Source: a virus. From it: 59,777 nucleotides of DNA. A model generated the notes under the pieces. The model made no database searches and was not told the DNA's origin. It saw nothing but the letters and a program-made list of their open reading frames with translations. Position numbers and translations under genes: made by a program. Positions 4,265 to 20,045 of the stretch are shown piece after piece; within the stretch, counting starts at the first letter, position 1, and every line of letters starts with the position of its first letter. Location of the stretch: positions 1 through 59,777 of IMG/VR virus record IMGVR_UViG_3300025141_017126, one strand, 5' to 3'.

Positions 4265-5179
4265 TCAACTTATCAGCTTTTTACGTAAATAACTAGGAAT
4301 AGCTGGTTTAAAGTAAGGAGTTAAACGATTTCGTAACTGAACACATTTCTTTTTATGGTAATCATTGAGTATCGCTAATCTTACTCCTCCGAGTGGGTTT
4401 TGATGAAATAATTCAGGATCATCTATTTGATAACTAGTTAAATTACTACAAATTTTATGTACAATATCCGTATTTACAGTATATTCTACATTATTCTTAC
4501 CCCAGATAGCAAATAAATAAAACTCATTTATTTCCTCTTTAAATTTCCACACTTTATCCTGATATAAACTTATAATATTTGATATTAAATTGTAATTGCC
4601 CAGCCTATCAACATCTCCCATCCTTAAATGAACCTCAATTATAGTCGTAGGTTCTTGTCCAATTGTTTCCAAACAAATGCATCCAGTATAATTTTTTAAA
4701 TGTTTTTTTATCCAATCATAAACATATAGAATAATTGAATTTTTAGGAATAGATACTTCCCAGTAGTCAAACATTCCATTTCCAATAGGGTAGCCTTTAA
4801 AAGTTATAGACCACAGGGGTACTCCATTTAAAACTATGATATCGTGACTTAAGTGTATACCTTCTATCCATTTCATCCATAAACATCCTGGATGACGACA
4901 CGTTTCCAACTCCTTAGAGCTATTAATTTTTCTAGCTTCAACTCCTCCACCAAACATATTATATATAGGTTTAACAACAACAGGGTATTTAGTAGGAGTG
5001 ACTCCTATAGGTCCACAATCTACGTTTTGTGATAATGCAATATTTAATTTGTTATAAACCCAATTTTCATTTTCATAGTATAACCACGCAGAATCATCTG
5101 TAGTAGGAATATCTACTACAGGGTCTTTTAATTCTTCATAACATCTTAGAACTTTTGGGTTATATCCTATAAATGGCAT
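4265..5179 (-). CDS. ATP-grasp-like protein
   Basis: About 304 residues. The segment YPVVVKPIYNMFGGGVEAR resembles the ATP-grasp lysine plus glycine-rich loop, and IIEVHLRMGD resembles the late metal/ATP-binding strand. ATP-grasp enzymes join a carboxylate to an amine or thiol; the substrate here is unknown. I chose the ATG at 5179 because an in-frame ATG at 5203 lies inside the stem of the Hsp20 terminator; neither has a clear ribosome binding site. It would be co-transcribed only if that terminator is read through. Confidence 0.6.
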   Translation of the reverse strand: MPFIGYNPKVLRCYEELKDPVVDIPTTDDSAWLYYENENWVYNKLNIALSQNVDCGPIGVTPTKYPVVVKPIYNMFGGGVEARKINSSKELETCRHPGCLWMKWIEGIHLSHDIIVLNGVPLWSITFKGYPIGNGMFDYWEVSIPKNSIILYVYDWIKKHLKNYTGCICLETIGQEPTTIIEVHLRMGDVDRLGNYNLISNIISLYQDKVWKFKEEINEFYLFAIWGKNNVEYTVNTDIVHKICSNLTSYQIDDPELFHQNPLGGVRLAILNDYHKKKCVQLRNRLTPYFKPAIPSYLRKKLIS

Positions 5180-5794: not shown

Positions 5795-6757
5795 TTAGAG
5801 TCCGTTAGGAACAATAACATAATGTATAATTAATACTATTCCTATAGATACTAAAAGTCCAACAAGCATTTTTATAAAATCTTTAGCAATAATAGGAAAG
5901 ACATATTTAAATTTATAATCTTGCATTATAGTAGAAATGGCTAACTCTCTACCACAAAGTAATCCAACAAATACCCACGTTGTACTCATAGGAATGTCAT
6001 TATATTGTTTAAAAAATAACAGGATAAAAGCATATACTAAGTCAATAATAGTAGCTGATCTCACATATCGAGTTCCTGTTTTTTCTAAAACAATTTTTTG
6101 AATTCTACCGCCTTTTTCATAGAACATATATCCTAGAAAAACGATAAAAATACCAGATGCAGCTAACATCCATTCTACTGGAACAGACCTTGGTAAAAAT
6201 ACTGCAATATTTGCTAAATCATGAGAAAGCCATGTATACCATAAAAAACCAGTAGTACACCATTGTCCTATTCGCCAGTACTTAATATTTTTTTCTTTAA
6301 CTTTGTCTGCTTTTTCATCTATTAAACGTTCAATACCAAACCAAAGAACATATGCAACTACAGCAGCAATCGCATACCCCATAATAGATTTAACTAACAT
6401 TTTTTCTAAAATAAAAGTGCTAGCAAAAGCCGAAAGAACTAAGAAAGTAGTAGAAACTGGGATTCCTACTCGGGTTAAGGCTAATAGGATAAGTGGAGCT
6501 AAAGCATGATACCATTGAGTCTCAATCCAGGGAATTTTATTTAATCTTCCAAAAGATATATCCCCATCATTTACTGACCATCCATACCATAACGTAAATA
6601 AAAGAACAGATGAAGCAGCAACCCATAACCAGTACCATTTAAATCTTTGGGAATTAGAAGCAATCCAAGTTCCCAAAGTTTGAACACTATCATTTGCGAC
6701 AACAGAATAGGCAGCAAATAAAAAACCAACTGTCATCCATAACATTGTTACATCCAT
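5795..6757 (-). CDS. PiT-family inorganic phosphate permease
   Basis: A 320-residue polytopic membrane protein. The two inverted PiT signature regions are visible: ANDSVQTLGT (about 22-31) with GIPVSTTF (about 98-105), and SHDLANIAVFLPR (about 178-190) with DIPMSTTWVFVG (about 254-265). PiT proteins import phosphate (as metal phosphate) using an ion gradient across the inner membrane. It is shorter than E. coli PitA (499 aa), lacking the long central loop, as in compact family members. A sulfate permease of the same family (CysP) cannot be excluded. A porin gene lies just upstream and a Pho-box-like repeat lies between them. Confidence 0.85.
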   Translation of the reverse strand: MDVTMLWMTVGFLFAAYSVVANDSVQTLGTWIASNSQRFKWYWLWVAASSVLLFTLWYGWSVNDGDISFGRLNKIPWIETQWYHALAPLILLALTRVGIPVSTTFLVLSAFASTFILEKMLVKSIMGYAIAAVVAYVLWFGIERLIDEKADKVKEKNIKYWRIGQWCTTGFLWYTWLSHDLANIAVFLPRSVPVEWMLAASGIFIVFLGYMFYEKGGRIQKIVLEKTGTRYVRSATIIDLVYAFILLFFKQYNDIPMSTTWVFVGLLCGRELAISTIMQDYKFKYVFPIIAKDFIKMLVGLLVSIGIVLIIHYVIVPNGL

Positions 6758-6851: not shown

Positions 6852-7760
6852 TTAGAATGTTATGCCTAACCCAGCACTATAAACACTCTCTTCTGTATCA
6901 AGATCATAGTCTATTTCGGTAAATAAAACAGCGTCACTACCTAGTTTATAATGAACACCACCAGTAGTAAGACCATCATCACCAGTAGCATCAGTATCTC
7001 CATACCCTGCTAAAATAGTGATTGTTTCTTTAATAGTATAGCCTCCAACTACTTCATAACCCATAATATCTGTAGTGGTAGTATCTTGGACACTAAAACT
7101 ACCAGAAGCACTAATAGGGCCATAACTACGAGATGCACCAATACCATAATAACTTGTGTTATTGATAACATCATCAGCGTATGTTACGCCAATTCCTTCG
7201 TAAGTTGCTCCAATTTGCCATAGGTCAAAAGTTTCATCAGTTGCTCCATCAAGTATTTGAGATTGAGCACCAAAAGTTACACCTAGTGGAGTAGTTTTTT
7301 CATATTTAACACTATTGGTTAATTTATCTGAGGGTTGTTGAATACCTCCATTTCCACTAGCTTTAAATTGTGCTCCCTTATTTACATAATTTTCCATTAT
7401 GCTTTCTGTTTTACCGATACTAAGTGCACCTAGTGTGTCACTTTTTACACCAACATAACCGAATCTACTAGTAACGTCATCATTACCATCTCCATTAATA
7501 TCAACATCAACACTTAACTCTCCAAATACTGATGCAATGGGACTAAATTGATTACTAAATTTAACTCCAAGTTTACTGTCGGAGGTTTTTAATTCAGGAT
7601 CTTTTCCTGTTGCAGTTCCTCCCTCAACAAATGCTCGTGCTTCCCCAAATAGGGTTACTTGTGTATCTTGAACATCAACTACATTATCATCGTTAGCAAG
7701 CACTGGAGCACTTACAATAATTCCAGCTACTACTAAAGCACAGAAAATATTTTTATTCAT
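6852..7760 (-). CDS. Gram-negative-type outer membrane porin
   Basis: 302 residues. A classic Sec signal peptide (MNKN, hydrophobic core, cleavage near VLA/ND, residue 22) precedes alternating beta-strand sequence with glycine and aromatic residues, VTLFGEARAFVEGG near the mature N-terminus, and a terminal phenylalanine (GLGITF) as required for outer-membrane insertion. Length fits a 16-strand general porin. It should form a diffusion channel in the host outer membrane. It has its own promoter and terminator, and lies beside a phosphate permease, so a shared nutrient-uptake role is possible. A receptor-masking role is an alternative. Confidence 0.85.
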   Translation of the reverse strand: MNKNIFCALVVAGIIVSAPVLANDDNVVDVQDTQVTLFGEARAFVEGGTATGKDPELKTSDSKLGVKFSNQFSPIASVFGELSVDVDINGDGNDDVTSRFGYVGVKSDTLGALSIGKTESIMENYVNKGAQFKASGNGGIQQPSDKLTNSVKYEKTTPLGVTFGAQSQILDGATDETFDLWQIGATYEGIGVTYADDVINNTSYYGIGASRSYGPISASGSFSVQDTTTTDIMGYEVVGGYTIKETITILAGYGDTDATGDDGLTTGGVHYKLGSDAVLFTEIDYDLDTEESVYSAGLGITF

Positions 7761-8175: not shown

Positions 8176-8620
8176 TTGATGTTTCCTCTCGTGTATTATC
8201 AACAACCAGTTTAATTGATTGTTCTCTTTTAATGTGTGGCATTACCCTAACTATTTTTTCTTCAATTAAGTCATCTAGAACATGAGAAGTAAATGACTTT
8301 ACGCACTCATCCATAGATACTATATTTGCAGTTTTCGGAAGTTTTTTAACTACAATAGGATTACTTGTACAGTATGTTTCAATTAGATTCTGAACATACA
8401 TTAAATTAGCTGAACCAATTTTTCTAGGATTTTCTTGTAATTCAGCTTTTAATGTTTCCGAAATAGATTCATCGTCTGTATCAATATTTCTAGGAGAAAC
8501 TAACTCCCACAATCCTCCTGTATATATAACTCCTTCATCTTCATCTACAATATCTTGAGGATTATCCTCTAAGATTTTTAGAATTTTTCGTAGTAATTTT
8601 TCATAACCGTTTTTCTTCAT
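8162..8620 (-). CDS. Hypothetical acidic protein
   Basis: 152 residues, acidic N-terminal half (ILEDNPQDIVDEDEGV), no membrane segment. Its ATG at 8620 overlaps the stop of the glycosylase gene (4 nt), and its 3' end overlaps the DsbA-like gene. It is clearly part of this operon; no family was recognised. Confidence 0.55.
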   Translation of the reverse strand: MKKNGYEKLLRKILKILEDNPQDIVDEDEGVIYTGGLWELVSPRNIDTDDESISETLKAELQENPRKIGSANLMYVQNLIETYCTSNPIVVKKLPKTANIVSMDECVKSFTSHVLDDLIEEKIVRVMPHIKREQSIKLVVDNTREETSNVSV

Positions 8621-9480
8621 TTTTGAACCTCTGGTGAATAATATGTTGTTCTTTGATCATCTAATTTAATTTTTTGAATAGGATTACCATAAGGATCTTC
8701 TTTTTGAGAATAAACCATAACACCTATTCGTGACTTCATCATTTCATCAGCTTTAGAAGGAAAAGCAACATACTGCCCTTGATTATTATATAAATCAGAA
8801 TAATTTCTGATAGTTGCTCCTCCTGTTTCGTAACTATTTTTTAAAACCGTTTTAACCGCCGTATAAAGCCGCGACAGTTCTTCCGAAGTACAGTCCCTAA
8901 CCTTGCGATAGGGAGCCAGACCAGCCAAAAATAGACTTTCGGATTTATAAATATTGCCAACACCGGATACATTTTTTTGCTCCATTAAAAATTTAACTAA
9001 AGATTGATTTTTACGTTTTTCACATATTTGAAGCCATGTTTTTTCATCACATGGCTCATTTAACATATCTGGACCAATTTCCGAAAGTTTTTTATTCAGT
9101 TCTTTCGATGACTCTGATCCAAAATAAAATTTAAGAGTTCCAAAATTTCTCATATCAGAATAATAAATTTCTGTATTATCATCAAAAGTCCACCGTACTC
9201 TTGCATATTTATTATCTTTGGTTTTATAAGTTCCTGTCATTCCTAATGTTGAAAATATAACTCCAGAACTTGTAATCCAATAAATAAACTTACCTTTATT
9301 ACTCACTCCTAGGACTTTTTGAGACTCATGATTAATTGCTCCATCTACAAAATCAGTAAAACCACTGGGTTCTTTTTTAGTATATCGTCCTGATAAAAGT
9401 TCAATATCTTTGATAACTTTATCTTGAACTATACTATTTAATTGCTTTGTAACAATTGTTACTTCTGGACCTTCCGGCAT
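8617..9480 (-). CDS. Fpg/Nei-family DNA glycosylase with degenerate zinc finger
   Basis: 287 residues, a base-excision repair glycosylase/AP lyase. The obligate N-terminus MPEGPE supplies the catalytic proline and glutamate (Pro2, Glu3). The family's lysine loop (NKGKF, near 62) and the helix-two-turn-helix GVGNIYKSE (near 178-186) are present. The C-terminal finger keeps the fold-like frame and the DNA-binding arginine (DQRTTYY), but all four zinc cysteines are lost: PCxxCG has become PYGNP and YCxxCQ has become YSPEVQ. It would thus be a zincless-finger enzyme like NEIL1. Start codon overlaps the previous stop (TAATG). Confidence 0.9.
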   Translation of the reverse strand: MPEGPEVTIVTKQLNSIVQDKVIKDIELLSGRYTKKEPSGFTDFVDGAINHESQKVLGVSNKGKFIYWITSSGVIFSTLGMTGTYKTKDNKYARVRWTFDDNTEIYYSDMRNFGTLKFYFGSESSKELNKKLSEIGPDMLNEPCDEKTWLQICEKRKNQSLVKFLMEQKNVSGVGNIYKSESLFLAGLAPYRKVRDCTSEELSRLYTAVKTVLKNSYETGGATIRNYSDLYNNQGQYVAFPSKADEMMKSRIGVMVYSQKEDPYGNPIQKIKLDDQRTTYYSPEVQK

Positions 9481-9722
9481 TAATGTATTGTCCTGTGGTC
9501 TGGGATAAGAGGTTTAATATCAGATACATTTTCTATAACATAGTGTAAAAGTTGTTCTACATTTTTCTCACTTAACATTGTTTGGTAGACTTGAATAGTA
9601 ATTTTTAAGGCCATTGATGCTACTTTTAGACGATCTTCCTCAGAATAAGAAGAAAAAAACTCTAACAACTTATGTTGTGCTTCTTGCATTACTTCTATAT
9701 CGTGTTCACTAGACATTTTCAT
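9480..9722 (-). CDS. Hypothetical helical protein
   Basis: 80 residues, all-helical pattern, with a good ribosome binding site (AGGAG, 9 nt before the ATG). The stop overlaps the glycosylase start and its 5' end overlaps the preceding gene. Function unknown. Confidence 0.55.
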   Translation of the reverse strand: MKMSSEHDIEVMQEAQHKLLEFFSSYSEEDRLKVASMALKITIQVYQTMLSEKNVEQLLHYVIENVSDIKPLIPDHRTIH

Positions 9723-9960
9723 AGTATTTTTCTCCTGTTATATGTTCAGTTAATAACATTTTTTCTAAAGATGCTAATCGATCTAATGATGACATCCCTT
9801 CTTTAGAAAATTTTCCATCTTTAATAATACCTTCTATAGCAGTTTTGTGTTCCTCAAACCAATGACCGAGATGTTCGTCAGAAGTATAATTTAAATTTTC
9901 TCTAATTAACTTACCAACTTGCTCTCTTTTACGCTGTTTGATCCACCTTTCACTGGGCAT
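9709..9960 (-). CDS. Hypothetical protein
   Basis: 83 residues beginning with a basic segment (RWIKQRKREQ). It overlaps both neighbours by 11-14 nt in a tight operon. No family recognised. Confidence 0.5.
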   Translation of the reverse strand: MPSERWIKQRKREQVGKLIRENLNYTSDEHLGHWFEEHKTAIEGIIKDGKFSKEGMSSLDRLASLEKMLLTEHITGEKYYENV

Positions 9961-10360
9961 ATTTTTGTTTCCTTACTGGTTTAGTAATTACCCAATCATG
10001 TACTCTAATAGAGTTTTCAAACCAGGCTAATTCTTTGGATATATTATGATATTTAGTTTTATTATCCATAAGCGTAGAAGTAAATATTTGAATAAAATTA
10101 ATTGCAAACATATGCCAAGGATTTTTCATATTAATCTTATTACTTACATAAGAATTCATCATTTTATATTTATACCACTTATTATTAAAAGATGGATGCG
10201 TATAGAACTTATAATTATTTAAATCATGTTTCAAAATATTAAAAATAACTTCGTATTCAGTTAATTTTTCATCTATATTTGTATTATCATCTTTATATAT
10301 ATTACTAATAGATTTAATTAAATTAAGATAAGGATTACGAGATTTTTTATAAATTCTCAT
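9950..10360 (-). CDS. Hypothetical basic, Asn/Lys/Tyr-rich protein
   Basis: 136 residues, AT-rich codon use, no membrane segment or known motif. Its start and stop overlap the neighbouring genes (1 and 11 nt), which supports it being translated. Confidence 0.5.
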   Translation of the reverse strand: MRIYKKSRNPYLNLIKSISNIYKDDNTNIDEKLTEYEVIFNILKHDLNNYKFYTHPSFNNKWYKYKMMNSYVSNKINMKNPWHMFAINFIQIFTSTLMDNKTKYHNISKELAWFENSIRVHDWVITKPVRKQKYAQ

Positions 10361-10653
10361 TAGAATATCTCAGGTACACGAGTAGGAACAAGAGCGCCCC
10401 ATACTGCTTTTTTATCATAGTATCTCATTGTTTCTAAATGATCCAAATACTTATTAATTTTAATAGCTGAATCATTATACGCTTTTTTCTCAGTTTCAGA
10501 AATAAGACGTCCTGCAATACCCTCCATCCATGAAATAGCTAAAGGGGCATCCCACTTAACAACATAAGTTGCGTCTCTAACTAAACCGTTCATATCGGCT
10601 ATCCCAAAAGCAAAGGGAGAAATAATAGGATTTGATTTTTTTCTTGGCATCAT
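10360..10653 (-). CDS. Hypothetical protein, first gene of the minus-strand operon
   Basis: About 97 residues. I chose the ATG at 10653, which has AAAAGG upstream; an in-frame TTG at 10665 overlaps the promoter. No recognised domain. It is the promoter-proximal gene of the leftward transcription unit, so it is probably expressed early. Confidence 0.5.
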   Translation of the reverse strand: MMPRKKSNPIISPFAFGIADMNGLVRDATYVVKWDAPLAISWMEGIAGRLISETEKKAYNDSAIKINKYLDHLETMRYYDKKAVWGALVPTRVPEIF

Positions 10654-10664
10654 TAACCTTTTCA

Positions 10665-10693
10665 ATATTAGTTTTTAGTTGACAGATTGTTAA
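10665..10693 (-). promoter_or_regulatory. Leftward promoter of a divergent pair
   Basis: Minus strand TTAACA (10693-10688), 17-bp spacer, TAATAT (10670-10665). Predicted start about 5 nt before the ATG at 10653. Its elements interleave with the rightward promoter. Confidence 0.55.
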
Positions 10694-10707
10694 AAATAGT
10701 TTATATT
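10679..10707 (+). promoter_or_regulatory. Rightward promoter of a divergent pair
   Basis: TTGACA (10679-10684), 17-bp spacer, TATATT (10702-10707). The predicted start is only about 4 nt before the ATG at 10718. Confidence 0.65.
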
Positions 10708-10717
10708 TAAAATTATC

Positions 10718-10897
10718 ATGTATATATCAAGACAAGAGTTAAAAATTGAGGTCAGAGATTTACACGGTCAAATCCGTGAAGTCATATCCGACTTTAACGG
10801 AGCAATCAAAAATCTTCATGAAGATATTGAAGAACTTAACGCTCGTATTGACAATCTTGAAACTATAATAACAAATTTAAGGGATTTTGGCAAATAA
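10718..10897 (+). CDS. Small coiled-coil protein
   Basis: 59 residues from ATG 10718 to TAA 10895-10897, nearly all amphipathic helix with heptad-like spacing (QIREVISDFNGAIKNL, then DIEELNARIDNLETI). It is the first gene of the rightward unit and sits directly behind a consensus promoter, so its mRNA would be almost leaderless. Function unknown. Confidence 0.55.
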   Translation: MYISRQELKIEVRDLHGQIREVISDFNGAIKNLHEDIEELNARIDNLETIITNLRDFGK

Positions 10898-10904
10898 AAA
10901 AACA

Positions 10905-11144
10905 ATGTTTAAACTAATTGGATTCTACATAAATGAAAATCAAAAAACCTATATAGATATGGTTTTAGCGAACTGTGATGGTATAAATCAAAAAGAATCG
11001 CAATCCGCTATTGATAACTCATTATGTGAAAAATATGGATATTCGACTTTTCCAGTTTTTGCTTTGTTTAAAAACAATGTGTTAACTAGAAATGTAGTGG
11101 GTAAATACCCAATTAACACTATTAAATCTAAATTATTAATATGA
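10905..11144 (+). CDS. Small protein, possibly thioredoxin-fold
   Basis: 79 residues. The C-terminal part (STFPVFALFKNN, then VVGKYPINTIKSKL) resembles the cis-proline strand and last helix of thioredoxins, but there is no CxxC pair, so redox activity is doubtful. Start taken at the first ATG; an in-frame TTG at 10887 lies inside the preceding gene. It overlaps the S21 gene by 4 nt (ATGA). Confidence 0.4.
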   Translation: MFKLIGFYINENQKTYIDMVLANCDGINQKESQSAIDNSLCEKYGYSTFPVFALFKNNVLTRNVVGKYPINTIKSKLLI

Positions 11145-11443
11145 AAATAACAGTATATAATAACGATGTAAGTAAAGCTTACCGCATCCTTCAAAAAAAA
11201 TTAAATAATGAAGGAACTTTAAGAGAATTAAAAGAGAGGGAATTTTTTAGAAGTAAAGGCGAAAAAAAACGTCTTGAACGCAAAAGAGGAAGAGTTCGTT
11301 ATAAAAAACAAGAGAAAAAAAGAATGATTGCTCTTGAAAAAGCAGAATTGCGTGCTTTTAAACAACGAAAACTTAATCAAAAAAACGCAAGGCAATCCTC
11401 CCCTCATAAAGCCAATAAAACCTGGAAAAATACTAAAAAATAA
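11141..11443 (+). CDS. rpsU: Ribosomal protein bS21
   Basis: 100 residues. Residues 1-60 match bS21 throughout (NNDVSKAYRILQKKL, LKEREFFRSKGEKKRLER), followed by a long Lys/Arg-rich tail beyond the usual length of about 70. bS21 sits on the 30S platform near the anti-Shine-Dalgarno region and affects initiation. Phage bS21 is known, including in pelagiphages, and is thought to replace the host copy and bias ribosomes to phage mRNA. It lies 0.5 kb upstream of a phage tmRNA. Family assignment is secure. Confidence 0.92.
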   Translation: MKITVYNNDVSKAYRILQKKLNNEGTLRELKEREFFRSKGEKKRLERKRGRVRYKKQEKKRMIALEKAELRAFKQRKLNQKNARQSSPHKANKTWKNTKK

Positions 11444-11475
11444 TATATTATGTAAATATCAAAGGAGATATTTAC

Positions 11476-11724
11476 ATGAAAGCATTTAAAGGAAGTTTTA
11501 AAAAGAAGTCGGGTGAAAACAGAGAGATGTTTTTTGCCAGAATTTCTGACTTACCAAGTCAATTTGTAGCCGCTAAGATCGTGGGTGCAGGTAATGAACA
11601 AAATTATCCAAAAGGTATGGAACTTGTTTGGGATTTAGAACAAGATGATTTTCGTATTTTTAATTGGAATACTACCAATTCATCTATTATGGAAACTGAA
11701 ATAGATGAAAACCTACTTAGTTAA
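11476..11724 (+). CDS. Small SH3-barrel-like protein (WYL_2-like), unknown function
   Basis: 82 residues with a strong ribosome binding site (AAAGGAGATATTTAC before ATG). The pattern FKKKSGENREMFFARI, then VWDLEQDDFRIFNW, resembles the short Sm/SH3-like barrel family found in many phages (WYL_2). The 3' end overlaps purS by 20 nt. Family call is tentative. Confidence 0.45.
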   Translation: MKAFKGSFKKKSGENREMFFARISDLPSQFVAAKIVGAGNEQNYPKGMELVWDLEQDDFRIFNWNTTNSSIMETEIDENLLS

Positions 11725-11986
11725 AATTACTCTGAGAAAAAATATTTTAGATAAAGCAGGAACAGCAGTTACTAAAGTCTTAATTAATATGGGATATAAA
11801 GTTAAAAATGTACGAATTGGTAGAATTATTTGTATAACTACAGATGAAGATATAGAACTAATTGCTAAGAGTATAACTAATGAAGTTATGGAAGATTTCG
11901 AAATTGAGTGTCTCGATGATAGGAGCAGAATAAGCATACAGGACATGGGGGCAGTACCCATCGCCTCCACCACGAATACATTGTAA
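11705..11986 (+). CDS. purS: PurS subunit of phosphoribosylformylglycinamidine synthase
   Basis: 93 residues. Residues 1-72 have the PurS pattern: KTYLVKITLRKNILDKAG, an AVTKVLINMGY helix, VKNVRIGRIICI, and a second helix ending EDFEIE. PurS is the small structural subunit linking PurL and PurQ in purine synthesis, and would act with host PurL/PurQ. purS occurs in cyanophages. The last 25 or so codons run through the acceptor half of the tmRNA gene, so the same bases serve as protein tail and structural RNA. Confidence 0.85.
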   Translation: MKTYLVKITLRKNILDKAGTAVTKVLINMGYKVKNVRIGRIICITTDEDIELIAKSITNEVMEDFEIECLDDRSRISIQDMGAVPIASTTNTL

Positions 11987-12240
11987 GGGTATTAATACCA
12001 TGCCTAAGGCCCCAACGGTTAACTCTTTCTCATCGGATAGGCAGGATGGGCAATGTATTCTTGATGGGGGCGAACTAGGATCGACTGGTGTAATAAAAGC
12101 AAATGGAGAGACAGGTGTGCAAACGACCTAAACCGTAAGAAAACAATAAATGCTAACGATAATGAAGCATTTGAGGATTATGCACTAGCTGCGTAGTTTA
12201 TTCGGGGTATAGGCTCCACCTGGCAACAGAACGGGCCTTT
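11909..12240 (+). ncRNA. ssrA: Circularly permuted two-piece tmRNA (alphaproteobacterial type)
   Basis: The acceptor piece comes first: TGTCTC (11909-11914, 5' end approximate), T-arm ATGGG/CCCAT (11945-11949 with 11957-11961), 3' acceptor strand CGCCTCC (11962-11968), then ACCA to 11972. An intervening segment (11973-12065) is closed by the inverted repeat GAATACATTG/CAATGTATTC. The coding piece starts at 12066 with GGGGGCG, which pairs with CGCCTCC, then a D-like loop and GAGACA (12108-12113), which pairs with TGTCTC as helix P2. The tag reads ANDNEAFEDYALAA and stops at TAG (12194-12196). The 3' end near 12240 is approximate. tmRNA rescues stalled ribosomes and tags nascent proteins for proteolysis. 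Confidence 0.92.
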
Positions 12241-12271
12241 CATATTTAAAGACAAAATAAAAGTTTCATAA

Positions 12272-12302
12272 GGAAGGTCCCTTGGGACCTCCCTTTTTTT
12301 TA
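12272..12302 (+). terminator. Intrinsic terminator after tmRNA
   Basis: Stem AGGTCC/GGACCT (loop CTTG), with flanking G/C pairs, followed by eight T residues. It ends the S21-purS-tmRNA unit. Confidence 0.85.
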
Positions 12303-12333
12303 ATTTCACTGGTGTCTGTATTTACACCCCCAC

Positions 12334-12362
12334 TTGCTATTTTTTAAAATTTATAGTATTAT
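12334..12362 (+). promoter_or_regulatory. Promoter for the sugar/glycan cluster
   Basis: TTGCTA (12334-12339), 17-bp spacer, TATTAT (12357-12362). The ATG at 12370 lies 7 nt after the -10 box, so the first mRNA would be leaderless. No other clear promoter was seen until about 32.7 kb, though I did not scan every coding frame. Confidence 0.65.
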
Positions 12363-12369
12363 ACAAATA

Positions 12370-13098
12370 ATGATATTACAAAAACAAACCAAAACCAAAT
12401 ACAAATCAGATGCGTTATCTCGAAAGCAGTTGTCTGATTTTTTTAATGACTATGAAAAAGAAGAAAAAGAATATGATACCCTCTGGGATAATTGGTTCCT
12501 AGCTGAATCAATACACTGTCATCAAGACTATGGAGGTGAATATGCTGGTTCAGGAACTTTAGACTATATTGAAGGACTTATCTTATATACCCTTATAAGA
12601 AAAAATAAACCAAAAACCGTATTTGAGATAGGTACGGCACAAGGTATGAGTGCTGCTCTAATGGCATCAGCTATCGAAGCTAATCAAAACAATGGAAAAA
12701 TTTTCTGTGTAGATAAAAAGTTACCTCATAGAATGAGTCCTACTTTTAGTAAGGCAATGGAAGCTGAGTTTATTGAATTTTATGAAGCAGATGTTTTTGA
12801 ATTTTTAGATGAGATAAAAGAAATTCCTGATCTAGTATTTGTAGATGCTGATCACAGAGAAGAATTTTGTATGAAAATTACTAAAATTTTAGCTGATTCT
12901 TTTCCTAACGCTATTTATGCTTATCATGAATGGTCTCTTTCTACTATATCTCAAAAACCAGAAATAGAGTATATTTCAAGATCAGAATGGTTGCATCAAT
13001 TTTATGAACGCCCTGCTTTTGAACTATACTTTAATAAACCAAAATATAAACACAATGGATTTGTAGGAAGTTGTGGATTAGGAGTAGTTACTCAATGA
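12370..13098 (+). CDS. Class I SAM-dependent methyltransferase-like protein
   Basis: About 242 residues. The SAM-binding motif I is TVFEIGTAQGMSAALMA, followed by an acidic strand end (IFCVDKK) and a motif III/IV-like LVFVDADHREEF, resembling the Methyltransf_24 group and cephalosporin-hydroxylase-like enzymes. Start set at ATG 12370 because the upstream in-frame codons lie in the promoter. It opens the glycan cluster and overlaps the next gene by 4 nt (ATGA). Substrate unknown, possibly a sugar or glycan. Confidence 0.65.
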   Translation: MILQKQTKTKYKSDALSRKQLSDFFNDYEKEEKEYDTLWDNWFLAESIHCHQDYGGEYAGSGTLDYIEGLILYTLIRKNKPKTVFEIGTAQGMSAALMASAIEANQNNGKIFCVDKKLPHRMSPTFSKAMEAEFIEFYEADVFEFLDEIKEIPDLVFVDADHREEFCMKITKILADSFPNAIYAYHEWSLSTISQKPEIEYISRSEWLHQFYERPAFELYFNKPKYKHNGFVGSCGLGVVTQ

Positions 13099-13796
13099 TT
13101 ATTTATTTTAGATGTACAAGTAAAGAAGAAACAGTTAGTGGGGTAGATCGGTGGATTGAATGCCCAAAAGATGAAATCGTTTTAAAATGTTGGATGAGTT
13201 TACAACTTGCAGCAAAACCAAAAAACGATAGGTTTATTATTCTTCACGATGAATTAAATTCTGGTGCTTTAGAGTTTATCAAAGAAACTCAGACTTGTAA
13301 TACAGAATTTATTGAAGTGGAACCCCACGATCTTCAAGATCGAGGACACACATTTAAATTATTAGAAGTCTTAAAAGAAAATCTTGAACAAGACGAAGTA
13401 AATGATATTCACTATATTGTAGAAGATGACTACTTACATACTCAAGATTCATTAGAAGTTTGTAATGAAATTCTAGGTTCAAATTTATGGGAACATTTTA
13501 TAGTTCCTTATGATTACCCCGATAGATATTCACTAGATACTCAACCTTGTGGGTTAATGGTAGGCCCCAGATGTCACTGGCGTACTAATCCAAGCTCAAC
13601 TTATACTTTAATGGCACAGGCTGAAACATGGAAAAAAGCAATGCCAATTATTGAAAAGCATGCACCTCATAATTTTACAGAAGAAGCGTTTCAATCATAT
13701 CCATGTTTAAGTCCAGTACCTGGAAAAGCATCTCATTTAACTAAATATCATATGACTCCCCTTATTGATTGGAGAGATATCTGGAATAAGCTATGA
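13095..13796 (+). CDS. Putative glycosyltransferase-like protein
   Basis: 233 residues. A central IHYIVEDDYLHTQDSL segment looks like the acidic metal-binding (DxD-like) strand of GT-A glycosyltransferases, followed by a GLMVGPRCHW region. Start at ATG 13095, coupled to the previous stop. The next gene starts within its stop codon region (4-nt overlap). Family not firmly recognised; the call rests on this motif and on the surrounding glycan genes. Confidence 0.45.
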   Translation: MIIYFRCTSKEETVSGVDRWIECPKDEIVLKCWMSLQLAAKPKNDRFIILHDELNSGALEFIKETQTCNTEFIEVEPHDLQDRGHTFKLLEVLKENLEQDEVNDIHYIVEDDYLHTQDSLEVCNEILGSNLWEHFIVPYDYPDRYSLDTQPCGLMVGPRCHWRTNPSSTYTLMAQAETWKKAMPIIEKHAPHNFTEEAFQSYPCLSPVPGKASHLTKYHMTPLIDWRDIWNKL

Positions 13797-14593
13797 CAAC
13801 CACCCAAGAATTTTTAAAAGAAATTAAAGAAAAAGATATACATACTCGTCAAGACCGAGAAAAATATCTCGGACAAGAATTAGATAAATTTATTGATTCT
13901 GGTGGTGAAATGCATGATTTTGGCGATAGTGATAGTACACCTCATTTAGACTTAGTTTATGATTTTGTAAGATGGTATCCCTCAGATATGTATGAACATC
14001 TTCCTACATTAAGAAAATATGCGGGAAAGTGTGATACAGTATGTGAGTTTGGTACTAATGACCTTACAAGTACTCTTGGCTTATTGAGTGGATTTCCTAA
14101 ACATTTAATAACCTTAGACCTTAATCACCCAGATATATTTGTATTAACTTTTGAACCCTTTAGTCCAAATCGTAAAGAAAATGAAGAACCTATGATAATT
14201 AAACTCAATCTTGAAACAGTCAATAAAATTGCTGCTGAAAATGAGATTGAGTTTAAATTTATACAAACTAACTCATTAGAATTTTCTTTTAATAGCGTAG
14301 ATTTATTGTTTATTGATAGTTTACATACTTATACTCAATTAACTAAAGAGTTAATGTTGCACTCTAAAAAAGTAAAAAAATATATTATCTTACATGATAC
14401 AGAATTTTATGGAGAAAAAGGACAAGATAATAAAGATGATGAAGGAAATTATTTATGCCCACACTGGGAAACTAAAGGTATAGGACATGCAATTGCGGAG
14501 TTTTTAGAAAATCCTTATAGCGGTTGGGTTATTGATAAACACTATACAAATTGTCATGGTCTAACTATCCTAAAAAGACCGTGGATAGCATAA
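13793..14593 (+). CDS. Class I methyltransferase-like protein
   Basis: 266 residues. Motif I is TVCEFGTNDLTSTLGLL, followed by HLITLDLNHPDIF and VDLLFIDSLHTYTQL, resembling the Methyltransf_24 type found in phage and bacterial glycan loci. The ending includes HYTNCHGLTILKRP. Overlaps the previous gene by 4 nt. A role in modifying a sugar is inferred from the neighbours. Confidence 0.6.
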   Translation: MTTTQEFLKEIKEKDIHTRQDREKYLGQELDKFIDSGGEMHDFGDSDSTPHLDLVYDFVRWYPSDMYEHLPTLRKYAGKCDTVCEFGTNDLTSTLGLLSGFPKHLITLDLNHPDIFVLTFEPFSPNRKENEEPMIIKLNLETVNKIAAENEIEFKFIQTNSLEFSFNSVDLLFIDSLHTYTQLTKELMLHSKKVKKYIILHDTEFYGEKGQDNKDDEGNYLCPHWETKGIGHAIAEFLENPYSGWVIDKHYTNCHGLTILKRPWIA

Positions 14594-14594
14594 A

Positions 14595-15524
14595 ATGGAT
14601 CAATCAGATCTCTTTTTAGATCAAGATTTCTTTGGCCAAAAACTTAAAGAGTCAGATCATTTATTAGCGGGACCGTGGATAGGAGAATTCGGTTGGGAGT
14701 TATTTTGCTTTCAGGGTTATTTGAGAAAGTTAAGGGATGATAACCCTCATATTAAATCATTTAACGTAATTAGCAGACCGGGAAGAAGTGTTATATACGA
14801 GGATTTCTGCGACGTATTTGTTGAATATGATTGTCCAGGGACAGAACTCACTGGAGCTTTATGTATGGGGTGGGATACAACTCCTGCTATTCAATTTGCA
14901 CATACTGTAACAAATAGCCTAAAATTAGAAAACTGTATATGGATACCTCCTCAAATATTTCCTATTAACTACCACGCTGATGGTCCCGAATACGAAAAGT
15001 ATTTAAAAATTTTTAATGAAAGCCAAAAGTTTATTCAATTTGGTAAATTTAATTCTGAAGTATCTTATGATATAGTTATACACGCAAGATCAACAGGTAA
15101 ATTTAATTCAAGCGATAGAAATTGGCCAGAAGCTAAATGGTACGAATTAATAGAGTTACTTAATAAAGATGGATTAAAAATAGCTTGTATCGGTTTAGAG
15201 GGTCAAGCTCTTGCCCTACCAAAAACCACTAATTTACTAAATATTCCGCTTGAAGAAACAGTAGATGTATTAGCTAGTTCTAAATGTATTGTAGGAACTT
15301 CTAGTGGTCCTATTCATTTAGCTTCTTTATGTGGATGTCCACAAGTATTAATTTCTGAATGTGTGGAAAGCGGAGGAAAAGATAATGAACGTAGATATAA
15401 ATACGACTGGAATCCTTTAAAAACGCCAGTTCATTTAGTTAAATACGAAAACTCAAAAAAAGATAATGGGTGGAATCCCCCGATAGATAAAGTAAAGAAA
15501 CTTATAGATGATATACTGTTTTGA
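14595..15524 (+). CDS. Glycosyltransferase family 9-like (heptosyltransferase fold)
   Basis: 309 residues with a GT-B pattern. The N-terminal half has GPWIGEFGWELFCFQGYLRKL, and the C-terminal half has the donor-site pattern of heptosyltransferases: LASSKCIVGTSSGPIHLASLCGCPQVLI. GT9 enzymes add ADP-heptose or related sugars to lipopolysaccharide-type acceptors. It directly precedes the heptose-type activation genes, which suggests that product as donor. Overlaps the HAD gene by 17 nt. Confidence 0.75.
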   Translation: MDQSDLFLDQDFFGQKLKESDHLLAGPWIGEFGWELFCFQGYLRKLRDDNPHIKSFNVISRPGRSVIYEDFCDVFVEYDCPGTELTGALCMGWDTTPAIQFAHTVTNSLKLENCIWIPPQIFPINYHADGPEYEKYLKIFNESQKFIQFGKFNSEVSYDIVIHARSTGKFNSSDRNWPEAKWYELIELLNKDGLKIACIGLEGQALALPKTTNLLNIPLEETVDVLASSKCIVGTSSGPIHLASLCGCPQVLISECVESGGKDNERRYKYDWNPLKTPVHLVKYENSKKDNGWNPPIDKVKKLIDDILF

Positions 15525-15831
15525 TTTAGATGGAACTTTAGTTACTAATACGGAAGATGAAAATGGTGAAATGCATTATACTGAAGCAAAACCTATACCA
15601 GAAGCTATTAATAGATTAAGAAAACTATATGAATCAGGTCATAAAATTATTATTCAAACTGCTCGTGGGTCAAAAACAAAAAAATTTGCTGAATATACTA
15701 AATTAACTGAAGATCATTTAGAAAAATTTGGTATTCCTTATCATCAACTTATTGTTGGGCATAAACCGTCTGCTGATCTTTATATAGATGATAAAGCTAT
15801 TAATGTTAAAGATTGGTTAAAAAGTGACTAA
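15508..15831 (+). CDS. HAD-family phosphatase (small, capsule/heptose type)
   Basis: 107 residues. Catalytic aspartates are in CFDLDGTLV (Asp6, Asp8); motif II is IIQTARGS, and motif III/IV is PSADLYIDDKAI. It is smaller than GmhB (about 190 aa) and lacks its zinc loop, but its place between a GT9 gene and the RpiB-HldE2 fusion suggests it removes the 7-phosphate from a sugar bisphosphate. Overlaps the following gene by 8 nt. Confidence 0.75.
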   Translation: MIYCFDLDGTLVTNTEDENGEMHYTEAKPIPEAINRLRKLYESGHKIIIQTARGSKTKKFAEYTKLTEDHLEKFGIPYHQLIVGHKPSADLYIDDKAINVKDWLKSD

Positions 15832-16669
15832 TATTGTATTAGGTGCTGATCATAATGGCATTGAATTAAAAAAATTAATTAAAGAAGATTTAATTTTTAA
15901 TTCAAGATTTAATCCAATAGATATCGGCCCTTTTAATACAGATAAAGTTGATTATCCTGATTATGCATCTCAAGCAGCTCAAATACTAGCTAATGGAGAT
16001 GCTCAATTTGGAATTTTAATTTGTGGAACCGGTATTGGCATGAGTATTGTAGCAAATAAAGTTGCAGGAATCAGGGCTGCGTTAGTTCATAATCTACAAA
16101 CCGCACCTCTTGCAAAAGAACATAATAATGCAAACATGTTATGTTTAGGGGCTTGGGTAGTTGATCATCCTACTAGTTTACAGATTGTACACAGCTGGTT
16201 AAATGCAAAATTTGGAGAATACCGCCATGTTAAAAGAGTAGCAAAAATAGATGTTAATCCTACCAATAAAATTGTGTTTACTAATGGAGTATTTGATTTA
16301 GTACATAGTGGACATGTCGAACTTCTTAATTTTGCTAAATTATTAGGAGATAAATTAATAGTAGGATTAAATTCTGATAGTTCAACACAATCTCTTAAAG
16401 GCGATAAAAGACCAATTAATAAAGAAGAAGATAGAAAAAATATTGTTCAGTCATTACGAGCTGTTGATGAAGTAATAGTATTTGATTCTACAAATACTAC
16501 AGATTTAATAAAAAGTCTCAAACCTAATATTGTTGTTAAAGGTGGAGAATGGACAGCAGAAGAAGTTAGAAAAAGAGACGAAATACCTAATGATATAGAA
16601 GTTTATGTATATCCCTTTAAAGAAGGTTATTCTTCAACAAATATTATTAATATGATTAAGGAAAAATAA
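15824..16669 (+). CDS. Fusion: RpiB/LacAB sugar-phosphate isomerase + HldE2/RfaE2 nucleotidyltransferase
   Basis: 281 residues, two complete domains. Residues 1-135 are RpiB-like: GADHNGIELKK with Asp9/His10, YPDYA, catalytic Cys67 in ICGTGIGMS, and HNNANMLCLG. Residues 148-281 are the adenylyl/cytidylyltransferase of the HldE C-terminal type: FTNGVFDLVHSGH (HSGH at 161-164), LIVGLNSDSS, KPNIVVKGGEW and a terminal GYSSTNII signature. Together they would interconvert a ketose and aldose phosphate and activate the sugar-1-phosphate with ATP or another NTP. Sedoheptulose-7-phosphate to ADP-heptose is the likely route, with the RpiB domain standing in for GmhA. The specificity is inferred. Confidence 0.88.
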   Translation: MTNIVLGADHNGIELKKLIKEDLIFNSRFNPIDIGPFNTDKVDYPDYASQAAQILANGDAQFGILICGTGIGMSIVANKVAGIRAALVHNLQTAPLAKEHNNANMLCLGAWVVDHPTSLQIVHSWLNAKFGEYRHVKRVAKIDVNPTNKIVFTNGVFDLVHSGHVELLNFAKLLGDKLIVGLNSDSSTQSLKGDKRPINKEEDRKNIVQSLRAVDEVIVFDSTNTTDLIKSLKPNIVVKGGEWTAEEVRKRDEIPNDIEVYVYPFKEGYSSTNIINMIKEK

Positions 16670-16670
16670 T

Positions 16671-17315
16671 ATGTCATCTCCTCGTGAATGTGAAGTATAT
16701 AATCGTTTATTATATGATCTTGGTTTAGTAAGTTGGACATCAGGAAATGTAAGTGTTTCCGATGGAGAAAATCTTTATATTAAACCTAGTGGAGTTCTTT
16801 TTGAGGATATTCATTCTAATAATGTAGCAAGTGTTAATATAGAAACTGGAAAACATTTTAGAGGACTAAAACCTTCTACAGATACCGAAAGTCATCGAAT
16901 TATATATAAAAATAAACCAGAAATAAAGGCGGTGGTTCATACTCATTCTACATTTGCAACAGCTTTTGCTGCTTGCGGAAAAAACATACCAGTATATTTA
17001 ACTGCAATGGCAGATGAATTTGGAGAAGAAATTCTCTGTTCTGGATATGCTGAAATTGGTGGAAAAGAAATTGGAGAAGAAGTATGTAAATATTCCGATC
17101 CAACTGGAATTGTATTATTACGTAATCACGGAGTTTTTACCGTTGGAACAAGTGCTAAATCAGCGTTAAAAAAAGCTGTAATGGTAGAAGATATCGCAAA
17201 AACCACATATTATGCTTTAAAATTAAGAAATCCAATTGAATTAACTGAAGAACAGATTAAAAATTGTTATGATAGATACCAAAATACCTATGGACAAAAT
17301 TTTACTAATCGGTGA
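16671..17315 (+). CDS. Class II aldolase/epimerase (AraD/FucA family)
   Basis: 214 residues. The zinc site of the family is visible: His90 and His92 in HTHST and His153 in LRNHGVF, with SWTSGNVS and IKPSG phosphate-binding segments. AraD converts L-ribulose-5-P to D-xylulose-5-P; FucA-type members split or join dihydroxyacetone-phosphate products. In this cluster it could feed pentose or heptulose phosphate intermediates. AraD and FucA cannot be separated here. Confidence 0.85.
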   Translation: MSSPRECEVYNRLLYDLGLVSWTSGNVSVSDGENLYIKPSGVLFEDIHSNNVASVNIETGKHFRGLKPSTDTESHRIIYKNKPEIKAVVHTHSTFATAFAACGKNIPVYLTAMADEFGEEILCSGYAEIGGKEIGEEVCKYSDPTGIVLLRNHGVFTVGTSAKSALKKAVMVEDIAKTTYYALKLRNPIELTEEQIKNCYDRYQNTYGQNFTNR

Positions 17316-18120
17316 TACGATTATTGATATTAATACTGAAGGGGTTTTATTAGGAACCTCTTCAGAAACTCCTACTTTAGTAATTACTAAAGATACTGAA
17401 ACAATTACTCATGGGGGTGCAGCATTAGTTCATCGTAATCTTACTAAATTAGAATGTAGTCATGAATTTGTTACAAATAATTCTCTAGTAACTTTAAATA
17501 AAAAGATTACAACTAAACACCGTTATTGGTGTAATAAACATAAACTTTTACAAGTAGATGATAGAGATAATACCCCTATTACAGATGAAGAATCAGAACT
17601 AATATTTGAATACATTCAAAGATCTGATGCTAATGTAATAGCAATAGCTGATTATCGACACGGTCTTTTATCTCCCAAATTAATAGAACTAATTAATACC
17701 TCTAATAAAATAATTATTTTAGATTCTCAGGTTTCACAAAGTCCTGCTAATCATCATATGTATAAACATATTTATTTAACTCTATTAAATGAACATGAAG
17801 CTGAACAATATGTATCAAATGTTAGTTGGGATAACCCTGAAGAATTAAAAGAAGGATTATATAAAGAAATAGACTCCCTTCATTTTATTGTTAAATTTGG
17901 AAAACTAGGTTGCATTTACTTTGATTCAAAAACCTCTATACAACATAGAACACATTCAGTTGAAAATCCTGTTGATGAATCAGGAGCTGGCGATGCGTTT
18001 ATGGCTGGGTTATTAGCTTGGATGCAGAAAGGTTCGTCTATAAATGAAGCATCTGGGTGGGCTAACGAATGGGCGCGTAGATCTGTGATGGTAAAAGGAG
18101 CTAATCCCCCTGATGACTAA
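17290..18120 (+). CDS. PfkB-type sugar kinase, HldE1/RfaE1-like
   Basis: About 276 residues. Ribokinase-fold motifs: ILLIGDTIIDINTEG at the N-terminus, THGGAALVHRNL, an IILDSQVSQSP strand, and the anion hole/catalytic base ESGAGDAFMAGLL. The arrangement is that of the HldE kinase domain, which phosphorylates heptose-7-phosphate at O1. In bacteria this domain is usually fused to the nucleotidyltransferase; here the two are in separate genes. Start taken at ATG 17290, just before the first strand; ATG 17269 is an alternative. It overlaps the aldolase gene and the following cupin gene. Confidence 0.82.
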   Translation: MDKILLIGDTIIDINTEGVLLGTSSETPTLVITKDTETITHGGAALVHRNLTKLECSHEFVTNNSLVTLNKKITTKHRYWCNKHKLLQVDDRDNTPITDEESELIFEYIQRSDANVIAIADYRHGLLSPKLIELINTSNKIIILDSQVSQSPANHHMYKHIYLTLLNEHEAEQYVSNVSWDNPEELKEGLYKEIDSLHFIVKFGKLGCIYFDSKTSIQHRTHSVENPVDESGAGDAFMAGLLAWMQKGSSINEASGWANEWARRSVMVKGANPPDD

Positions 18121-18517
18121 TAAATATGGTATTCAAAAAATACCAGAGATACATCAATGTACAGACTATAGAGATAAGTATTGGGGCTGGATAAAAACTT
18201 GTTCTGCTACTAATGATTTTACATTAAAACATATTTTTATGCATAAAGATAGCCAAAGTAGTTTGGAATATCATGTCAAAAAAGATGAAAATTACTATAT
18301 TCTATCAGGTAAATTAAAAGTCGGACTTCGAATTGGTAGAGCAGAAAATAAAGAAGTTATTTTAAATGAGGGAGATGTCTACCATATTTCTCCAGGATTA
18401 ATGCATATGAGATTTGCAATAGAAGATACTCACATCATTGAATGGTCTAATAAAGATGATGACAGTGATTCACACATAGTCGAAGATGGACTTTTATATC
18501 AACATGAGGTTAAATAA
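18113..18517 (+). CDS. Cupin protein (sugar-phosphate isomerase/epimerase type)
   Basis: 134 residues. Cupin motif 1 is SSLEYHVKKDENYYILSGKLKV and motif 2 is GDVYHISPGLMHMRFA, resembling the C-terminal cupin of type II mannose-6-phosphate isomerases. It overlaps the kinase gene by 8 nt and the transaldolase gene by 1 nt. It may isomerise or bind a sugar phosphate; substrate unknown. Confidence 0.75.
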   Translation: MTNKYGIQKIPEIHQCTDYRDKYWGWIKTCSATNDFTLKHIFMHKDSQSSLEYHVKKDENYYILSGKLKVGLRIGRAENKEVILNEGDVYHISPGLMHMRFAIEDTHIIEWSNKDDDSDSHIVEDGLLYQHEVK

Positions 18518-19188
18518 TGAAATTATTTTTAGATACAGCTAATTTAGCTGACATAGAAACTGCTCTTCAAAAAGGGTTTATTACCGGAATTACCACTAAT
18601 CCGTCCTTGATGGCTAAAGAACCTAAAGGAAACTATATTGATCACATGAAAAAAATTGTGGAACTTATAGATAAATATTCTAATCCTATCAGTTTGAGCG
18701 TAGAAGTATTTGCTCAAAATAAAGAAAAAATTATTATAGAAGCTGAAGAATTGGTAAGTGAAATTCAATACGAAAATTTAAGTATTAAAGTACCTATTGG
18801 ATGGGAGGAACTAGAAGCGATTTACCAATTATCAATTGAAGGAATCAGTGTAAACTGTACTTGTATATTTAGTGAAGCACAATGTATGCTCGCAACTAAT
18901 GCGGGAGCACGTTATATTTCAATTTTTGGAAATCGTGTTAAAGAGTTACGAGGTAGTTTTACACAAGCTGTAGGAGCTACACGTAAATGGTTAGATATGA
19001 ATGATATTACTAATACAGAAATTATAGTGGGTAGTATTCGTTCTGGGATTGATATTGTCGATGCACAGTTAGCAGGAGCACATATTGTTACAGCAGGACT
19101 TCCACATTATATTAAAATGAGTGAGCATCCCGGTACCACAGCTTCTGTAGATCAATTTATGACAGATTTTAAAGAGTGGTTAGCATGA
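18517..19188 (+). CDS. talC: Transaldolase / fructose-6-phosphate aldolase (TalC-like)
   Basis: 223 residues, the short TalC/FSA subfamily. MKLFLDTANL at the N-terminus, the GITTNPSLM motif, Schiff-base lysine in LSIKVP (Lys91), CTCIFSEAQ, ISIFGNRV and GSIRS are all as in the family. TalC transfers dihydroxyacetone units; transaldolase activity would make sedoheptulose-7-phosphate, the entry point of heptose synthesis. Cyanophages carry talC to redirect carbon into the pentose phosphate pathway. Here it sits inside a heptose-type sugar operon, giving it a more specific likely role. Confidence 0.9.
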   Translation: MKLFLDTANLADIETALQKGFITGITTNPSLMAKEPKGNYIDHMKKIVELIDKYSNPISLSVEVFAQNKEKIIIEAEELVSEIQYENLSIKVPIGWEELEAIYQLSIEGISVNCTCIFSEAQCMLATNAGARYISIFGNRVKELRGSFTQAVGATRKWLDMNDITNTEIIVGSIRSGIDIVDAQLAGAHIVTAGLPHYIKMSEHPGTTASVDQFMTDFKEWLA

Positions 19189-20045
19189 AAATAGTATATG
19201 CAGCGGTATTTACCGAAACATCAACTAACACTCCTCAAGCTAATGCATTTGAAAAATTAGGTCATGAAGTAATCCGTTATGATTTTAAAGAAAAACTTAA
19301 AGAATTTGGTGAACCTAATTTACGGGATAAGGATCTTATAAATACTTGTGTATCAGAAAATCCAGATCTACTTCTTTTTAGTAAAGGCGTGGGAATTGAC
19401 AGTAGTGTTATCCCCACCTGTCAAGATATATGTCACGTAGCTTTATGGTATATGGACCCTATGATAAATGTTGATCAGGAATTGCTAGAAAAAATTGATA
19501 AAGTTAATTCAGTTTTTTATACTGCCCCGACAGTATATAGTACTTTAAAAGACAAAAATATCAATAGCTATTTTATTCATGAGGGGTATGAACCAACCTT
19601 TCATAAATTCTATGACAAAATTGATAAAGTATATAATGTTAGTTTTATAGGAGCTTTAAAGGAGCATCGAAAGCAGTATTATGATTTCTATAACTTTAAT
19701 TGTTTCTCAGATAAATATAATAAAGATCATTGTAAAATAATTAATCAAACTAGAATAAATTTAAACTTTACTAATAATCGTGAAGGAACTTCGGATAGAG
19801 CTTATAAAATTATGGGAAGTGGTGGATTTTTACTAACAGAACCCTGGGATGGTTTAGAAAACGATTTTAAACCTAATGAAGACTTAGTTATTTTTAATAA
19901 TGAAAATGAATTTAAAGAAAAAATTGAAGAATATTTAAAGGATTGGCAAAAAAGAAAACAAATTGCCCGTAATGGTGTAAATACTGTACAAAAATACACT
20001 GTAGAAGAATGGGCTAAATTTATTATCGAGGAGACAATATTATGA
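19185..20045 (+). CDS. Glycosyltransferase (CgeB/GT4-like)
   Basis: 286 residues. VYNVSFIGALKEHRKQYYDF followed by RINLNFTNNREGTSDRAYKIMGSGGFLLTE is the C-terminal donor-binding half of CgeB-type glycosyltransferases; the ending (ARNGVNTVQKYTVEEWAKF) also fits. Start ATG 19185 overlaps the talC stop (ATGA). Donor and acceptor unknown. Confidence 0.75.
   Translation: MKIVYAAVFTETSTNTPQANAFEKLGHEVIRYDFKEKLKEFGEPNLRDKDLINTCVSENPDLLLFSKGVGIDSSVIPTCQDICHVALWYMDPMINVDQELLEKIDKVNSVFYTAPTVYSTLKDKNINSYFIHEGYEPTFHKFYDKIDKVYNVSFIGALKEHRKQYYDFYNFNCFSDKYNKDHCKIINQTRINLNFTNNREGTSDRAYKIMGSGGFLLTEPWDGLENDFKPNEDLVIFNNENEFKEKIEEYLKDWQKRKQIARNGVNTVQKYTVEEWAKFIIEETIL

Follow-up and report, generated by a model that had tools for sequence, protein, structure and literature searches.

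The circularly permuted tmRNA of the Caulobacter type was reportedly described by Keiler et al. in 2000, and the tmRNAs of mycobacteriophages Bxz1 and Wildcat and of Bacillus phage G are one-piece molecules. All three of these phages have been listed as encoding their own ssrA, in an account that leaves the two-piece form unmentioned (PMC4131195). By 2021, 53 two-piece tmRNAs had been counted in phage genomes, and a two-piece tmRNA of the alphaproteobacterial type was published in 2022 for the Melnitz phages (PMC9004378). In the tmRNA database, the cargo recorded within permuted intervening sequences consists of one intact tRNA-Ala and one repetitive element (PMC11915505). The window analysed here, a linear virus record taken at its full length of 59,777 bases (G000), carries a gene that joins these published phage two-piece tmRNAs and is not new as such; the initial annotation had noted that phage tmRNAs were known. 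What looks new is the presence of protein genes laid across or inside the permuted tmRNA gene.

Melnitz (a Methylophilales phage; MZ577095-8, PMC9004378) is the closest described system. Like the window, it has a phage-borne, permuted, alphaproteobacterial-type tmRNA without any phage SmpB having been found; the two RNAs are 75% identical over their matched parts, and the Melnitz tag, ANDNYVPVDYALAA, shares the YALAA end of the window tag. However, Melnitz is a myophage of the Kyanoviridae that infects OM43, and a glutamine riboswitch comes after its tmRNA; in window positions 9000-14000, none was found even at E 5. Furthermore, its 142-nt intervening segment holds an unannotated open reading frame (ORF; family B, below) that the window segment lacks. 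The Caulobacter type represented by RF01849 agrees with the window in gene order, the G-U at acceptor pair 3, the T-loop GGC[AG]GTA, the D-arm, P2 and the tag frame, but the host tags compared here end mostly in AVAA, VLAA, RLAA or RMAA, whereas the window tag ends in ALAA, like the majority of viral tags. The permuted forms of the tmRNA database are without a reported protein-coding gene in the intervening sequence, unlike the phage relatives described below (PMC11915505). Similarly to the window, Bxz1, Wildcat and phage G have a phage-encoded tmRNA (PMC4131195).

The initial annotation had proposed a permuted tmRNA with its acceptor half first and had named a covariance search as the check. 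That search (cmscan) gave two full-length Rfam matches on this phage record, one to RF01849 (alpha_tmRNA; 127.1 bits, E 2.4e-34, 11858-12240, model positions 1-355 of 355) and one to RF04321 (tmRNA_permuted; 124.1 bits, E 8e-24, 11910-12196, model positions 1-213 of 213), both far above the gathering scores of 50 and 47, respectively. This confirms, far beyond chance, that window positions 11909-12196 are an alphaproteobacterial-type circularly permuted tmRNA. The pairings, the positions and the TAG-ended tag that had been proposed all agree with the window sequence (Table 1). The permuted order, the 7-bp acceptor stem GGGGGCG/CGCCUCC, G3-U70, A73 and an encoded CCA are all present, and the bases at -5 and -4 of the resume codon are U and A. 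The tag codons, GCT AAC GAT AAT GAA GCA TTT GAG GAT TAT GCA CTA GCT GCG TAG, translate to ANDNEAFEDYALAA*. The acceptor-before-coding order, the G-U at pair 3, A73 and CCA recur in 96 of the 96 viral genes in which both pieces were available, a count obtained with a search pattern in which the acceptor 3' strand was fixed. ARAGORN called no tmRNA in the window, although it does call those of Melnitz and of three further records (L143, L146 and L014); surveys relying on ARAGORN alone will therefore undercount such genes.

Table 1. Features of the tmRNA locus and its upstream genes in the window (positions are those of the window).
Feature	Position	Strand	Basis or remark
Sigma-70-like promoter, TTGACA-17-TATATT (11/12), before the S21-purS-tmRNA unit	10679..10707	+	Consensus match only
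Phage ribosomal protein bS21	11141..11443	+	Pfam PF01165, E 1.8e-8
82-aa protein, family-less	11476..11724	+	Marker of S21-orf-tmRNA synteny in the clade
purS (FGAM synthase subunit)	11705..11986	+	Pfam PF02700, E 2.5e-12, residues 6-68
tmRNA acceptor (tRNA-like 3') piece	11909..11972	+	RF01849, RF04321; T-stem change in L112; T-stem covariation
P2 5' strand, TGTCTC	11909-11914	+	Pairs with GAGACA, 12108-12113
T-stem ATGGG/CCCAT with T-loop GGCAGTA	11945-11961	+	
Acceptor 3' strand CGCCTCC, then ACCA (A73 + encoded CCA)	11962-11968; 11969-11972	+	
Intervening segment, 93 nt, expected to be excised	11973..12065	+	Terminal helix; fold z -3.2
Candidate ORF, 43 aa, after AAGGG; intervening segment into coding piece	12000..12131	+	
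tmRNA coding (tRNA-like 5' + mRNA-like) piece	12066..12240	+	Rfam; 3' end approximate
Acceptor 5' strand GGGGGCG, and D-arm AACTAGGATCGAC, both in the coding piece	12066-12072 (acceptor strand)	+	
P2 3' strand GAGACA, followed by the tag and then the downstream conserved part, in the coding piece	12108-12113	+	
Tag frame ANDNEAFEDYALAA, resume codon GCT, stop TAG	12152..12196	+	
Terminator-like hairpin + T run, after the tmRNA	12275..12300	+	Consensus match; sequence also in L112 and L143

The T-loop GGCAGTA, about which the initial annotation had been doubtful, is a normal one. It closes the stem AUGGG/CCCAU where the Rfam consensus has GGCgGUA. The 111 distinct viral relatives share GGCAGTA, and the named alphaproteobacterial chromosomal tmRNAs have either GGCGGTA or GGCAGTA. 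At the outer two pairs of the T-stem, positions that were left free in the search pattern, AT, TA, GC and CG are all used across the 111 distinct viral genes with zero mismatches. Both mature pieces are also conserved between the window and L112, a close relative whose neighbouring proteins are mostly 73-99% identical. Of the 64 acceptor-piece positions, 4 differ, and a double compensatory change in the T-stem (U-A in the window, C-G in L112) accounts for two of these, whereas the coding pieces, counted to the tag stop, differ at 3 of 131; within the tag frame, the differences are a silent change in an Ala codon and TAG to TAA. The intervening segment of L112, in contrast, is entirely different (18 nt vs 93 nt in the window), and purS is missing at its tmRNA site.

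This pattern bears on whether the phage might simply hold a decaying, functionless remnant of a host ssrA, as imprecise excision can leave phages with ssrA fragments (PMC9004378) and as the entry of the purS frame into the tmRNA might suggest. We consider such a remnant very improbable, since both pieces are intact, the tag changes relative to L112 are coding-neutral and the stem change is compensatory. Furthermore, the position behind S21 and the 82-aa protein gene is kept in diverged relatives, and the acceptor motif occurs in at least 120 IMG/VR contigs, most of them with intact tags. All 39 phage records behind the fetched loci exceed the family cut-off, and the window tag or its F variant is present in 21 viral contigs. 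Judged from these comparisons, the two-piece, circularly permuted tmRNA of this marine, distantly T5-like phage is very probably functional.

The affiliation of this phage is drawn from its own proteins. The window encodes a DNA polymerase, a DnaB-type helicase, an NAD-dependent ligase, an SbcC-like nuclease subunit and a ribonucleotide reductase. The best isolate matches of the SbcC-like protein are D12-type nucleases of T5-like Vibrio phages (33% identity), and so, judged by this protein, the phage appears to be distantly T5-like and not a pelagimyophage. Several other genes in the window may be mentioned. A phage-encoded formamidopyrimidine-DNA glycosylase (Fpg; 8617-9480) is conserved across the clade, close to the S21-tmRNA unit. 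On the minus strand, a phosphate-transporter-like gene (5795-6757; PF01384, below cut-off) adjoins a gene that looks porin-like by eye and has no Pfam match (6852-7760). A run of sugar and surface genes (12334-20045) includes methyltransferases, a glycosyltransferase of family 9, a class II aldolase and a PfkB kinase, together with a transaldolase-like gene and a sugar-isomerase/cytidylyltransferase-like fusion (15824-16669), both recognized by eye. Around the tmRNA itself, the promoter and the hairpin listed in Table 1 would bound one unit.

The initial annotation had read the neighbouring phage S21 gene as a sign of a dedicated translation and ribosome-rescue module. The adjacency is real: in the window and in five contigs of its clade (L112, L133, L135, L146 and L014), and only in these, no more than about 1 kb separates S21 from the tmRNA. 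The clade order of S21, 82-aa protein and tmRNA persists as S21 identity drops to about 47%, and thus appears to be a stable local arrangement of one clade. The 82-aa protein was found in nine viral contigs and had no match in Pfam or PHROG. A general S21-tmRNA module was, however, rejected outside this clade, as S21 is detectable in 12 of the 39 tmRNA-bearing phage records and 27 are without a detected one; where it does occur elsewhere, it is 2 kb to more than 90 kb from the tmRNA.

Similarly, the suggestion that a permuted tmRNA gives a clue to the host carries little weight. The Melnitz tmRNA is of the alphaproteobacterial type, yet Melnitz infects OM43 (PMC9004378), and in a pattern-level search no genome of the GTDB collection carries the window tag, so that host assignment by an identical tag fails; the type of the RNA is thus a weak host clue, and SAR11 is no more than a possible host. 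The named host tmRNA genes available for comparison were few and mostly from Rhodospirillales, Emcibacter or SAR116.

The way in which the window gene would work can be proposed from established tmRNA biology, which processing, charging, rescue and tag degradation would be expected to follow. A single transcript probably carries S21, the small protein gene, purS and the tmRNA. In the precursor, the acceptor stem would be extended through the CCA into a hairpin in which the two ends of the intervening segment pair, and host RNase P and 3'-end enzymes would excise that segment, leaving the acceptor and coding pieces joined through the acceptor helix and P2. Host AlaRS would charge the RNA (G3-U70, A73), and host SmpB would bring it to stalled ribosomes, where the tag A-ANDNEAFEDYALAA would be added for proteolysis. 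SmpB was found neither in the window, which is a genome fragment, nor in 14 further records, among them Melnitz, whose genome is complete, and 139-173 kb contigs from IMG/VR; the phage RNA must therefore, as far as seen, use host SmpB. An RNA supplied without SmpB draws on the host pool, and this would also fit an anti-host RNA that competes for SmpB or AlaRS, or that tags host proteins for breakdown, instead of serving phage rescue. A tRNA-like-domain-only form in phage DS6A has been suggested to be a tmRNA inhibitor (PMC11915505, PMC4131195), and tagging of host proteins was suggested by Buchholz et al. Simple titration, however, would not need the complete tag frame with an ALAA end that is kept in many phages, and we regard an anti-host role as unlikely, if less so than a functionless remnant. 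A tmRNA that acts in rescue with host SmpB is the reading that we prefer.

The predicted extension of the acceptor stem is visible in the ends of the intervening segment. In the window, GAATACATTG (11974-11983) and CAATGTATTC (12051-12060) prolong the acceptor helix, as part of an 11-pair run in register +k/-(k+4). Of the 71 non-redundant viral genes whose intervening segment measures 40 nt or more, 69 show six or more consecutive pairs between the segment ends in this single register, compared with 3-9 genes in neighbouring registers and a mean of 2.7 (maximum 7) in shuffles. In the same register, a UGAU that precedes the coding piece in 82 of 106 viral genes and 12 of 36 host genes faces ACCA, and thus the precursor acceptor helix would continue through the CCA. 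The terminal helix is not special to phages, being found in 10 of 15 host genes as well. Segment length does differ, with a median of 97 nt in viral and 40.5 nt in host genes; segments of at least 100 nt make up 45% of the viral set vs 0% (0/30) of the host set, and the longest in the distinct set of named host (RF01849) genes is 73 nt. The long intervening segments of the host genomes L294 and L295 hold no gene-like frame.

In the window, the protein gene that meets the tmRNA is purS. Its PurS domain ends at approximately 11908, where the tmRNA starts, and the frame then crosses the whole acceptor piece and the encoded CCA to reach a stop codon at 11984-11986, within the intervening segment. 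As the frame crosses the acceptor piece, maturation should part purS from its stop codon, and we infer from this layout that tmRNA maturation would remove it. Among about 110 viral tmRNA loci, a main upstream gene runs through the entire acceptor piece only in the window and in L133, which is the same species, and a PurS search of IMG/VR found the purS-tmRNA arrangement in no species but that of the window; it was thus rejected as a general pattern. The overlap could be a recent rearrangement without purpose, or it could turn purS into a nonstop message once the tmRNA has matured. The former is the reading towards which we lean, the overlap being probably a by-product of recent rearrangement, with PurS made from unprocessed transcript and bearing a 25-residue tail. 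Its limitation to one species, the lack of purS at this site in L112, and the upstream genes of other phages, which often end a few bases into the acceptor piece, all point in this direction; nothing speaks directly against it, and equally nothing speaks directly for purS as a deliberate nonstop message. The 43-aa candidate ORF (Table 1) occurs only in the window and L133, with no diverged relative, and is no more than a candidate; the window is put forward here for its purS overlap alone.

In the relatives, by contrast with the segment of the window, the case for whole small protein genes within the intervening segment is well supported. In many viral segments, a Shine-Dalgarno sequence directly follows the CCA (...CCTCCACCA/AAAGGAGACTAGTATG...), and a Shine-Dalgarno sequence with a start codon was observed in 26 of 67 segments where 11.9 were expected. 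Related families enter this count repeatedly, so that more weight rests on the codon test. Family A (MKNPLVREVSKWMFKAYIVWSICADITLLAGIIYLVFF), a 38-aa protein with a hydrophobic C-terminal half, is found in 280 viral contigs by tblastn (contigs include L213-L292, L108, L102, L121 and L063). Its stop codon ends 1 nt before the coding piece in 80 of 80 fetched cases, and the acceptor end CTCCACCA lies within 260 bases upstream in 79 of the 85 examined; of the remaining six, one has CTTCACCA and the others are cut by the contig end, have a longer spacing or show no acceptor end in range. The in-frame pN/pS of 37 distinct 38-codon sequences is 0.128, while the two other frames give 0.96 and 2.30. 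In 385 alphaproteobacterial genomes, family A was absent but for one partial match inside a 776-aa frame, which we took as chance. A short acidic ORF (..GDSDEEPSS..) overlaps the start of family A in a different frame.

The ribosome-binding site of family A sits within the terminal helix. In 37 distinct arm pairs, the 12 positions of this helix are paired in 97% of cells, compared with 54-73% in slid registers, and one pair alternates between U-G, U-A and C-G with pairing retained. Covariation of the helix was dropped as proof, as shuffling arms between sequences gives approximately the same count.

Other families show a similar tendency. Families B (Melnitz and relatives), C and D tend the same way as family A in the codon test, in smaller sets and with the codons overlapping the coding piece trimmed. 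ORFs whose only match came from the conserved ..DGGELGST.. stretch of the coding piece (some of family 2, the window ORF among them) were left out of the evidence for coding. In L135, in families C and D and in some members of family B, the mature coding piece contains the stop codon. L087 and L103 have a gene for a DUF2061-like membrane protein in a segment of approximately 239 nt (PF09834, E 1.8e-4, just below cut-off), with 9.5 synonymous and 7.5 nonsynonymous changes (pN/pS 0.22). Closer to the window, L135 has a zinc-finger-like ORF in its segment (zf-CHCC, E 1.1e-5, just below cut-off), and L043, which has the same S21 and 82-aa neighbours, a 65-aa ORF behind AAGGAG. A zf-CHCC-like ORF is also seen in the segment of L143, another window relative, where it continues into the coding piece (4313-4454). 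The nested ORFs of L046, L059 and L224 differ but end alike in ..YEDLC(M/K), perhaps a common module. In Melnitz MZ577096 (L122, 8033-8174), a small ORF, MFKWLSKTRLVVITRDYFRERNRKADAKIPKYLSG.., lies in the segment, where SsrA is the sole annotated feature. In full-text searches that covered few subscription papers and no bioRxiv preprints, we met no description of a protein gene nested in a permuted tmRNA.

These arrangements raise the possibility that phage permuted tmRNA precursors double as messengers, such that translation of a nested or overlapping gene and maturation of the tmRNA are mutually exclusive. In family A, the helix by which the acceptor stem is prolonged would keep the ribosome-binding site shut away. 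For genes whose stop codon falls inside or past a mature piece (families C and D, some of family B, the zf-CHCC ORF of L135, and purS in the window), maturation would leave a nonstop message, and this message would be a substrate of the very tmRNA that its maturation yields. We put this forward tentatively, as a proposal that may well prove wrong.

In summary, the window tmRNA extends the known range of two-piece tmRNAs in phages to a distantly T5-like lineage, and protein genes appear to be interleaved with phage permuted tmRNAs, as seen from codon selection in the relatives and from purS in the window. A 38-residue protein hidden in an RNA gene, in hundreds of marine phage contigs, is one that annotation would miss; likewise, the SsrA feature is all that covers the family B ORF of the Melnitz isolates. 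Furthermore, interleaved protein genes offer a possible reason why phages retain the permuted form of tmRNA, in which the intervening segment may serve as free space for a message.
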